A stretch of 64,000 nucleotides of DNA from Thermodesulfatator indicus DSM 15286 (GTDB lineage: Bacteria > Desulfobacterota > Thermodesulfobacteria > Thermodesulfobacteriales > Thermodesulfatatoraceae): NCBI RefSeq assembly GCF_000217795.1, contig NC_015681.1, forward strand, positions 248,001 through 312,000, written 5' to 3'. This document shows positions 57,524-60,888 of this stretch, one piece after another. The notes beneath the pieces were generated by a model. The model made no database searches, had not been told where the DNA came from, and worked only from the letters and a program-made list of their open reading frames with translations. The first letter of the stretch is position 1, and each line of letters begins with the position of its first letter. The position numbers were made by a program, and so were the translations under genes.

Positions 57524-59524
57524 TTACGGTCCAAGAGGATCAGGAATAATCTGGACATAAGGGAATTTCTCCATTTCCCACTCGCCAGTTTCAGGGTTGT
57601 AGCGAGAAAGGGTGAAGCAGCGCCATTCAGCATCGTTGAGCTCAGGGAAGTCTGCACGATAGTAGTAACCAGGATAGCGAGTTTCTTCTCTAAAGAGAAC
57701 GTGGCGGAGATGAAGCTCAGCCGTCCAGACACGGTGAATGTTTTCCCAGGCTCTCATGAGCTCGTGGAGATCCCGAGCTGCTGCCTTTTCCATATCTTCC
57801 TTGAGCATGGTCAAAAGTTCAAGGCCGCGTTCAAGCATGACCTTATTCGTCTGATAGAAAGTAGCGATACCAGCGACATATTCGTCCATAAGTTTCATAA
57901 GACGAGCCTGGATCTGTTTAGGCAAGAGGAAATTCGGGTTAACTTCATAGGAAGTAGAAGCCTCTTTATTTTCTTCAAAGCGATACCAAGGTGCATAAAT
58001 CTCTTTCTTGAGAGCTTCAGGATCTTCCTTAGGAGTAGGCACATAGTCTTTATTGTCAAGACAGAACTTAACCATAGCCTTAGCCGCAATACGGCCCTCA
58101 GCATGAGCACCAGAAGAGAACTTGTGACCACAAGCGCCCACGGTGTCACCAGCGCAGAACATGCCTTTAACCGTGGTCATACGGTTATAAAGACCAATTT
58201 CTTTCCAGGGTTCTTTATACTGATCAGGCACCCAATCTTCGTCAGGACCGCAGCACCAAGCACCAGCACAACCAGCGTGAGAACCAAGGAAGTAAGGCTC
58301 AGTAGGCATAATTTCGGAAGGTACCTTTTCAGGTTCGATGTTCAAGCAAGCCCAAAGACCCGCCTGAGTTACACACATGTCAAGGAAGTCTTCCCAGGCT
58401 TCGGCTTCGAGCTTCTTGAATTCCTTCTTGTCCATGGTCTTCATGGCTTCCTGAAGAGCCCACTCAGTATGGATGTAGATAGGACCACGACCTTCTTTCA
58501 TCTCAATGAGCATGGCGTGGTTACGCAAGCAGGTTCCGATAACGGAAGCTTCACTGTAAGGCTTAAACTTTTCAAGTTCACCCTTGTGCTTGGCGATATA
58601 ATCTTCACCAAAAGCGTTGGTAGCACGGGCTTTAAAAAGCAAGAACCAAGCACCAACCGGACCATAACCATCTTTAAAACGAGCAGGCACAAAGCGGTTT
58701 TCCATGAGTACAAGCTTGGCACCGCTCATGGCACACATGGCGTAAGCTGAACCAGGGTTCCAAACCGGATACCAAGCACGACCCTGACCTTCAGCCACAG
58801 AACGAGGACGGAAGATGTTAACCGCACCACCAGTAGCCAAGAGGGTGGCCTTAGCTTTAATGATGTAGAGCTTGTTTTCACGAACAGAAAAGCCTACACC
58901 ACCACAGCAACGGTTGGGTTCATTAGCGTCCATCAAAGGACGGACTATAAATACACGTTCAAGGATTTCGCCATTTTCACCAAGCTGCTCCATGGCGTTT
59001 TTAGCCGCTTCCGCTACGATGCACTTATAAGATTCACCGTTAATCATGATCTGCCAGCGACCAGAGCGAACTGGCTTGGCCCCAGATTTAAGGGTCATAC
59101 CCTTGGCCTTGGCCTGAGCACCGTCAAGAATCTTACCATCATCGGTACGCTTCCAGACGGGAAGACCCCATTCTTCAAAAGCAATAACACTATCATCAAC
59201 GTGGCGACCTACGTCAAAAGAAAGATCTTCACGGATGATACCCATCAAGTCACAACGGACCATGCGGACATAGTCATCAGGCTTGTTTTCGCCAATGTAA
59301 GTATTAATAGCCGAAAGACCCATGGCTACCGCACCAGAACGCTCAAGCGCGGCCTTGTCAACCAAAGTTACCTTGAGCCCAGCAGGCTTAGCCCAACGAA
59401 CAGCCTCTACAGCGGCACCGCAACAGGCCATACCACCGCCCACCAAAAGAATATCGGTTTCTTTTTCTACAATCTCAGGCTCAGCACAAGGAAGCCCAGG
59501 ATTATAAGACCAAATCTTAGCCAT
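57524..59524 (-). CDS. aprA: Adenylylsulfate (APS) reductase alpha subunit
   Basis: The 666-residue flavoprotein has the FAD-binding opening 'ILLVGGGMACCGAAVEAVRWAKP' in outline and the AprA blocks 'MGLSAINTYIGENKPDDYVRMVRCDLMGI', 'GACGHKFSSGAHAEGRIAAKAMV' and C-terminal 'DEYVAGIATFYQTNKVMLERGLELLTML'. The active site reduces APS to sulfite and AMP in the cytoplasm. It follows aprB by 39 bases and ends in a strong hairpin before qmoA. Codon choice is noticeably regular, fitting a highly expressed gene. Confidence 0.98.
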   Translation of the reverse strand: MAKIWSYNPGLPCAEPEIVEKETDILLVGGGMACCGAAVEAVRWAKPAGLKVTLVDKAALERSGAVAMGLSAINTYIGENKPDDYVRMVRCDLMGIIREDLSFDVGRHVDDSVIAFEEWGLPVWKRTDDGKILDGAQAKAKGMTLKSGAKPVRSGRWQIMINGESYKCIVAEAAKNAMEQLGENGEILERVFIVRPLMDANEPNRCCGGVGFSVRENKLYIIKAKATLLATGGAVNIFRPRSVAEGQGRAWYPVWNPGSAYAMCAMSGAKLVLMENRFVPARFKDGYGPVGAWFLLFKARATNAFGEDYIAKHKGELEKFKPYSEASVIGTCLRNHAMLIEMKEGRGPIYIHTEWALQEAMKTMDKKEFKKLEAEAWEDFLDMCVTQAGLWACLNIEPEKVPSEIMPTEPYFLGSHAGCAGAWCCGPDEDWVPDQYKEPWKEIGLYNRMTTVKGMFCAGDTVGACGHKFSSGAHAEGRIAAKAMVKFCLDNKDYVPTPKEDPEALKKEIYAPWYRFEENKEASTSYEVNPNFLLPKQIQARLMKLMDEYVAGIATFYQTNKVMLERGLELLTMLKEDMEKAAARDLHELMRAWENIHRVWTAELHLRHVLFREETRYPGYYYRADFPELNDAEWRCFTLSRYNPETGEWEMEKFPYVQIIPDPLGP

Positions 59525-59563: not shown

Positions 59564-60016
59564 TTATTTCCAAGCTACTGCTTCAGGCACAGCCGGAGTT
59601 ACATTATCAGCCACCTCGGTGAAAAGACGGTTATCACCAATAGCAGAAAGATCAGGATCAGGTTTACCAAGAGTGGGATCAGCTTCACCTTCGGGTGTAG
59701 TACGAATCGGGAACTTAAAGCGCTTTACTACACCATTACGGAACTTAATGGTCCACATAATGTCAGTAGTACCACGCATAGGCTGACAAGTTCCGCCAAG
59801 GGGAGCAAAGTCAGCATAGTGACGGACCATAATCGCACCTTGAGGACAAATCTTCACACAAGAATAACATTCCCAACACTGATCAGGTTCCTGGTTGTAG
59901 GCCTTCATGGCTTCAGTGTCAAGGATCATCAGGTCGTTCGGACAGATGTACATGCAAGCTGTCTTTTCGCCGCCCTTACATCCGTCACACTTCTCGGGGT
60001 TTACATAGCTCGGCAT
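59564..60016 (-). CDS. aprB: APS reductase beta subunit
   Basis: The 150-residue ferredoxin-type protein has two 4Fe-4S motifs, 'CDGCKGGEKTACMYICP' and 'CWECYSCVKICPQGA', and the long AprB tail that wraps AprA. It passes electrons from Qmo to the AprA flavin. The ATG has AGGAGG 6 bases upstream. It is the first gene of the operon, and its leader of about 110 bases holds a TGAACGTTCA dyad and possibly a short ORF. Confidence 0.98.
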   Translation of the reverse strand: MPSYVNPEKCDGCKGGEKTACMYICPNDLMILDTEAMKAYNQEPDQCWECYSCVKICPQGAIMVRHYADFAPLGGTCQPMRGTTDIMWTIKFRNGVVKRFKFPIRTTPEGEADPTLGKPDPDLSAIGDNRLFTEVADNVTPAVPEAVAWK

Positions 60017-60079
60017 ACTCCTACCTCCTTATTTATTTTTATGCTTTAAACAGAACATTAAGCTGAATTGAACTTTTTT

Positions 60080-60099
60080 AAATGAACGTTCACTCATTT
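60080..60099. promoter_or_regulatory. Overlapping dyads in the aprB leader, possible repressor site
   Basis: A perfect TGAACGTTCA lies at 60083-60092, inside a wider dyad of AAATGA (60080-60085) and TCATTT (60094-60099). The dyads lie about 10-25 bases past the predicted transcription start, a place where a bound protein would block transcription. The wording resembles TetR-family operators. No regulator gene lies next to it. Confidence 0.45.
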
Positions 60100-60107
60100 C
60101 GCCATTC

Positions 60108-60136
60108 CTTATACGTTGGACGAAAAATAGTGTCAA
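60108..60136 (-). promoter_or_regulatory. Strong putative promoter of aprBA
   Basis: Minus strand TTGACA (60136-60131), 17 bases, TATAAG (60113-60108), about 95 bases before the aprB ATG. Both elements are close to consensus. It reads into a dyad at 60080-60099. Confidence 0.75.
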
Positions 60137-60294
60137 GGCAAATTTAAGAAATTAATAGCGATAAAAGAGGTTTAATTCCCATTAAATAGGGCTTTTAGGC
60201 CGTTTTTCTAAAAAATTTGTCTTATGACTTTTTTTTTTACAAAAATGTTTTAAGCTGATAATTTCATGAATATTGTTTGACATTTTTAAAACAA

Positions 60295-60888
60295 ATGAAG
60301 AATTGCTTTTATAAGCTAACTATAGGACTAATACTTGCGGGAGGAGAGGCTCGCCGTTTTGGAGGGGGCAAGTGCCAGGCCATACTCCAAGGCAAACCAT
60401 TAATACAATGGGTTTACGAATCTATAAAACCTTTTACCTTTGAGATATGGCTTTCAGTAAAAAAACAAGAAGATTTTGGTTTGACATTTACCAAGGTTAT
60501 AAAAGATCCCTTTCCAGGAGCTGGGCCAGCAGTAGCTTTAAGAGAAACTTTAAAACATGTTGCTAATAATAAAGTTTTATTGGTTACAAGCTGTGACCAG
60601 CCCTTAATCCAGAAAAAATTACTAAAAGGTTTAGTCTCTTTTTTTGATCCCCATCAATACGAAATAGCCGTCTTTATTGATGAAAAAGGAAAAATTTTAC
60701 CCTTTCCCGGTCTTTATAAGGCTTCGCTGAAAAATAAAAAAGTCAACGCCTTAAGAGATTTCTTGAAAAATACTAAGGCCCTTATAATAAAACCTGAACT
60801 CTGGCGTAAATGGGACCCAAAAGGACTAAGTTTTTATAATATAAATTACCGTAAAGATTTAGAAAGATTAGAAAAAGGTACTCCCTAA
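60295..60888 (+). CDS. MobA-like molybdenum cofactor nucleotidyltransferase
   Basis: I use the ATG at 60295, although no ribosome site is visible; a TTG at 60277 is the alternative. The 197-residue protein has the NTP-transferase opening 'GLILAGGEARRFGGGKCQAILQGKPLI' in outline, 'DPFPGAGPAVALRETL', and 'LLVTSCDQPLIQ' in the place of the usual CDxP motif. MobA attaches GMP to molybdopterin, and sulfate reducers need such cofactors for formate dehydrogenases and related enzymes. MobA versus a related sugar or CTP transferase is not certain. It is divergent from aprB. Confidence 0.7.
   Translation: MKNCFYKLTIGLILAGGEARRFGGGKCQAILQGKPLIQWVYESIKPFTFEIWLSVKKQEDFGLTFTKVIKDPFPGAGPAVALRETLKHVANNKVLLVTSCDQPLIQKKLLKGLVSFFDPHQYEIAVFIDEKGKILPFPGLYKASLKNKKVNALRDFLKNTKALIIKPELWRKWDPKGLSFYNINYRKDLERLEKGTP

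Follow-up and report, generated by a model that had tools for sequence, protein, structure and literature searches.

Introduction

What is known of how sulfate respiration is controlled at its committed steps comes mainly from Desulfovibrio, through the regulators HcpR and Rex. A further family, ArsR/SmtB, comprises metal sensors, some members of which sense sulfur species. In the papers on HcpR, sites with the CRP-type consensus TTGTGA-N6-TCACAA are found at sat and apsAB of Desulfovibrio as palindromes overlapping the -10 element, where repression is predicted, and dsrAB is absent from the regulon predicted in 2004 (PMC545781; PMC1274295). Regarding Rex, published work describes repression of sat in Desulfovibrio vulgaris (PMC7531388) and a site of the form WTGWW-N8-WWCAW (PMC5886521). 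SmtB/ArsR operators of the 12-2-12 type, exemplified by TGAACA-GA-TGTTCA, often lie near the start site (PMC8790569).

We have followed up here a preliminary description of the region upstream of aprBA in Thermodesulfatator indicus, in a window of 64 kb (the whole stretch of DNA analysed), which had suggested both an operator and a leader peptide coupling translation to aprB. As judged from sequence comparisons, the operator idea is right and has a wider reach than first proposed, and the leader-peptide idea is wrong. The element is found at the same genes as the HcpR sites and, like them, is a palindrome at the -10 region. However, it reads TGA-N8-TCA and not TGA-N6-TCA, its outer bases differ, the TTGTGA half-site is absent and, in many genomes, dsrA is included among the targets. 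Like a Rex site, it would be bound by a repressor acting on sat, but WTGWW-N8-WWCAW does not match, the element having TG-N10-CA where Rex sites have TG-N12-CA. The spacing TGA-N8-TCA thus excludes HcpR and Rex, as well as FadR, which is considered below.

The aprBA promoter and its dyad

Table 1. Features of the aprBA control region, in window coordinates
Feature	Positions	Strand	Basis
-35 hexamer TTGACA, aprBA promoter	60131..60136	-	sequence; retained in 9/9 family genomes
-10 hexamer TATAAG, 17 nt past the -35	60108..60113	-	sequence; TATAAR in 9/9 family genomes
AAGGA, suggested ribosome site, overlapping the -10	60106..60110	-	sequence; AAGAA in G007
Dyad AATGAGTG-AA-CGTTCATT, proposed operator of a dimeric regulator	60081..60098	.	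shuffles and cross-genome comparison
Inner palindrome TGAACGTTCA, inside the proposed operator	60083..60092	.	sequence
22-codon frame MSERSFKKVQFSLMFCLKHKNK, judged not to be a gene; ATG within an operator half-site	60029..60097	-	family comparison
AAGGAGG, aprB ribosome site	60024..60030	-	sequence; invariant in 9/9 family genomes
aprB, first gene of the promoter	59564..60016	-	AprB matches of family and order 78-100% identical
aprA, second gene	57524..59524	-	recognised via sequence and position

The promoter announced at 60108-60136 is indeed present (Table 1) and agrees with the consensus at 11 of 12 positions; it is, by its sequence, a near-consensus promoter of the sigma-70 type, missed by the automatic scan because a T was required as the final -10 base. 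The gene aprB starts at 60016 on the minus strand, with aprA and then qmo-like genes behind it. A mobA-like gene (60277-60888) is divergent from aprB. This arrangement of a mobA-like gene opposite aprB or sat recurs (at L058, L165-L167, L169, L181, L182, L184 and L186-L191 among others, several by eye) across the window's family, G010 and many genomes of a second class, that of G060. In G057, genes resembling moeA (twice) and fdhD precede sat. Molybdenum-cofactor genes are thus found next to those of sulfate activation.

The dyad begins nine nt past the -10 and would lie over and just after the transcription start predicted from the promoter at about 60101. Its general form is A[AC]TGA[AG]-N6-[CT]TCA[GT]T. 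Both elements of the preliminary description, AAATGA...TCATTT and the inner TGAACGTTCA, are in the sequence, the latter occurring once in the window for 0.02 expected in shuffles; what had been described as overlapping dyads is best read as one dyad of 18 bp, whose arms are symmetric, with mismatches, over 8 bp and not beyond (by inspection). When the 59 nt past the -10 were shuffled 20,000 times, a half-site score of 12/12 was obtained with a frequency of 5e-5, and a score of at least 11 with a frequency of 0.003. The dyad of the window exceeds chance.

The 22-codon frame proposed as a leader peptide is present, from the ATG at 60097 to the TAA at 60031-60029, with AAGGA 8 nt before the ATG. 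A translated peptide of this kind would couple translation to aprB, and two observations are in line with it: all 9 family genomes have a start codon at this place, GTG in G009 and ATG in the others, with AGT as the next codon, and the stop adjoins the aprB ribosome site in G000 and G001. However, the stop lies 12 nt before aprB in only 2/9 family genomes, the frame runs from 9 to 39 codons across the family with a C-terminal part that is not conserved, the sister species G007 carries a 2-nt deletion within it and another stop position, and the supposed start codon is lost outside the family, CTG taking its place in 27/39 homologous dyads. As for the AAGGA, it overlaps the -10 by 3 bases and would therefore fall outside the mRNA if the aprBA promoter is used, and none of the 9 family genomes has an SD-like sequence between the -10 and the start. 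Lacking a conserved frame, a ribosome site in the mRNA and a fixed stop, the leader peptide is rejected as extremely improbable. The ATG is there because it is part of the half-site AATGAG; by these comparisons, the short frame is a by-product of the operator and not a gene.

Conservation at aprB and sat promoters

AprB was sought in 60 relatives, and nine genomes of the window's family (G000, G001 and G003-G009) provided the region, G002 having no true aprB match. The promoter and the island RTGAGTGRNNNYTCA are retained in all nine, with the dyad 80-149 nt before aprB, and the remaining leader varies in length and sequence. In a subgroup of leaders (L005, L007, L008, L009 and L011), the sequence GCCCTCA...TGAGGGC, whose match is imperfect in L009 and L011, may form another hairpin shortly before the aprB ribosome site. 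A strict pattern scan of genome contigs returned 10 loci, seven of them aprB of the family. L058, from a metagenome-assembled genome named 'Desulfobacterales bacterium', has the promoter and the dyad at 405 nt from aprB, and its mobA-like gene is oriented as in the window. The other two matches, one at the promoter of a TetR gene (L054) and one at a short gene taken by eye for yajC (L056), are probably unrelated or due to chance. Between promoter and aprB, L058 also has a terminator-like hairpin, AAGGTGCT...AGCACCTTTTTTATT, at about 807-846, and its leader may therefore act as an attenuator or be a small RNA.

A uniform criterion was then applied, namely a promoter with at most 2 mismatches together with a dyad scoring at least 10/12, in the 520 nt preceding sat or aprB. 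The dyad could lie anywhere between a point 30 nt 5' of the -35 and another 45 nt 3' of the -10. Counted as genomes that are related within each class, and hence not as independent events, positives were 9/9 in the window's family, 1/1 for G010 (a different family of the same order), 36/37 in the G060 class (37 of its 46 genomes gave an upstream region) and 1/8 (G057) among eight other genomes of the phylum; the sister family f3, of which 28 of 29 genomes were covered, gave 0/28 at aprB or sat. The sole miss of the G060 class, G065, has a 12/12 dyad and no qualifying promoter. G041, with a 12/12 dyad 7 nt past a -10 and about 490 nt before aprB, is uncounted because its promoter fell beyond the 520-nt cut. 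The choice of half-sites was derived from loci that were later scored, and the controls are family f3, 35 other promoters (see below) and reversed patterns.

Across the 46 genomes of the G060 class, the pattern TATAWR-N0-14-VTGAGYGRNNRYTCA matched 26, one match in each, for 0/46 with the reversed control, and 25 of these 26 matches are upstream of aprB or sat. When the half-sites are relaxed to A[AC]TGA[AG], sat promoters of this class that had remained unmatched also show the motif. A left half that is invariantly TGAGYG is a search-pattern artefact, relaxed scans giving TGAATA, TGAACA and TGAAGA as well; similarly, the inequality of the halves, with TGAG on the left and TTCA (= TGAA) on the right in 37/39 dyads, is partly such an artefact. 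Over 21 chosen genomes, pairwise identity is 86% in the half-site columns, 50% in the centre and 26-33% (near chance) in the flanks. Two dyads about 27 nt apart are found in several sat promoters of the G060 class, and the aprB promoter of G057 has dyads on both sides, 53 bp apart. One match in G093 (L180) stands before nuoABC-like genes and not before sat, which carries its own dyad in this genome; the dyad concerned, AATGAGTG-AC-AGTTCATT (1501-1522), is just 5' of a promoter-like sequence and may represent chance or a member of the regulon.

The motif at dsrA and its specificity

For dsrA, up to 3 promoter mismatches were allowed and 30 upstream regions were considered, these being the loci returned for the 35/36 genomes with a match. 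In the G060 class, 15/17 dsrA upstream regions score at least 10 and many share CCGAATG-NN-[CG]ATTCATT, the best match being away from the place conserved in the others in G085 and G087. In G010, the dyad AATGAATG-GG-CGCTCATT is found 13 nt past the -10 of dsrA. No dsrA dyad was found in the window's family (0/8) or in f3 (0/4).

Specificity was assessed on the window and eight stretches chosen because they hold aprB, sat or dsrA (L268-L275). Of their 42 promoters with at most 2 mismatches, only seven are accompanied within 40 nt by a dyad of 11-12/12, and these seven are those of aprB (window, L273), sat (L268, L275) and dsrA (L269, L272, L274) and of nothing else; none of the remaining 35 exceeds a score of 8. 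A search of ten genomes of the order with ANTGARYGNNNRYTCANT returned aprB or sat promoters and, for G010, those of dsrA and of a porin-like gene, with no match for the control; a match is also located inside a gene for a TonB-type receptor (by eye) in G007. Judged by these comparisons, the element is conserved at the DNA level, and it is specific to the promoters of aprB, sat and dsrA.

Two further observations were made outside these genes. The dyad before the porin-like gene of G010, AATGAATG-GG-AATTCATT (L228, 1501-1518), may mark a further regulon member. Besides, four genomes share a dyad TGAATGAAYCTTCAYTTW close to where a gene for a YbgC-like thioesterase ends and ahead of a mutS2-like gene (genes by eye), at L084 (G009), L089 (G001), L093 (G004) and G003:C67:2788-2805.

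A probable operator rather than an RNA element

With the dyad kept in 9/9 family genomes and the same half-sites found at sat/apr and dsrA promoters elsewhere, the comparison of aprB upstream regions strongly supports the operator proposed initially, also beyond the family. Could the dyad act instead as RNA, as a stem-loop at the 5' end of the aprBA mRNA stabilising the message or regulating translation? A 7-bp stem-loop can form where the transcript of the window begins, and the outer pairs covary (C-G, A-T and G-C at positions 2/17), but a DNA palindrome would give the same pairing. Position 6/13 is mostly G-T, which RNA allows as G-U, but 14/39 dyads have a C-A mismatch at position 7/12, and the leader of the window folds no better than its shuffles (z -0.33). 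No Rfam family was found, the one weak match being far below cut-off and on the other strand of L011. The G067 dyad directly adjoins the -10, so that part of it would be missing from a transcript with its start at the usual distance; other copies are 5' of the -35 (G057 sat, G067 and G068 dsrA, one of the G057 aprB dyads) and would be untranscribed from these promoters. Such positions argue for a DNA operator and not an RNA hairpin, and a 5' stem-loop, which supposes an element inside the transcript in every copy (start sites being those predicted), is rejected as quite improbable. The freedom of dyad placement fits a protein site.

On present sequence evidence, we consider it highly probable that a putative dimeric regulator of the genes of dissimilatory sulfate reduction has its DNA operator in the dyad at 60081-60098, and its targets would, with a similarly high probability, be aprBA in the window and sat-aprBA and dsrAB in relatives. 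The absence of the dyad from f3 (0/28 genomes) and from dsrA of the window's family (0/8) was counted against this model, as were the inequality of the two halves, the arms of the window showing by inspection no symmetry past 8 bp, short of a full 12-2-12 site, and the copies 5' of the -35, a place from which activation could also occur. In the mechanism that we envisage, a dimer bound to two half-sites A[AC]TGA[AG] would block RNA polymerase until a signal releases it, candidate signals being sulfide or other sulfur species, a metal, or redox. We infer here both protein binding and repression, the latter as the simplest mechanism, favoured because dyads are over the start site and two flank the aprB promoter of G057. 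An activator site is an unlikely reading: some copies are just upstream of the -35, where activators can sit (G057 sat and aprB; G067 and G068 dsrA), but most are over or after the start region of a promoter that is already near-consensus, the usual position for a repressor.

Candidate regulators

Among regulators of the same bacteria, FadR (a TetR of the YsiA type), which would link the fatty-acid state to sulfate respiration, resembles the putative regulator of aprBA by its sites: the similar half-site TGAATG is found in dyads placed just past the -10 of its own promoter. However, these sites, TGAATG-N6-CATTCA (TGA-N12-TCA), are 4 bp wider than the aprB dyad; moreover, no fadR was found for the window's genome, and G000 and G007, neither of which gave a fadR match, both retain the aprB dyad. 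FadR was rejected on both grounds and is very improbable. The fadR loci themselves (L105-L113, window's family and G010) show their own dyad just past the -10 in several genomes. The locus of L083 (CecR/PsrA-like), the only TetR found in G000, lacks a dyad of this kind. Inspection by eye of the neighbours of the listed target genes showed no evident regulator gene.

The geometry of the dyads is closer to that of ArsR/SmtB operators, with which they share a two-base centre, a TGAA-N6-TTCA core, a position near or over the start and a presence in one or two copies; the 2-bp centre and this core are found in sites retained by the uniform criterion. There are nevertheless differences, the targets given in PMC8790569 being metal-handling genes and the arms here being, by inspection, symmetric over 8 bp only. 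From site geometry, assignment of the regulator to the ArsR/SmtB type is thus tentative. Most likely, as it appears to us, a dimeric repressor with ArsR/SmtB-like site geometry would control sulfate activation.

Conclusion

Our literature search, which covered mostly papers outside subscription, found no description of the 18-bp motif, and the motifs given in PMC545781, PMC1274295, PMC7531388, PMC5701242 and PMC5886521 differ from the 18-bp dyad. We favour, with some reserve, the reading that an undescribed regulator, perhaps a sulfur or metal sensor of the ArsR/SmtB type, coordinates sat, aprBA and dsrAB through a shared operator in several lineages. This putative regulator would constitute a switch dedicated to the pathway, acting independently of HcpR and Rex, which, among sat, aprBA and dsrAB, would have been reduced to aprBA in Thermodesulfatator and lost in the sister family. 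An operator common to sat/apr and dsr promoters in lineages other than Desulfovibrio, and largely uncultured, would point to a dedicated regulator of sulfate respiration, and the 18-bp site may serve as a ready bait to find it.
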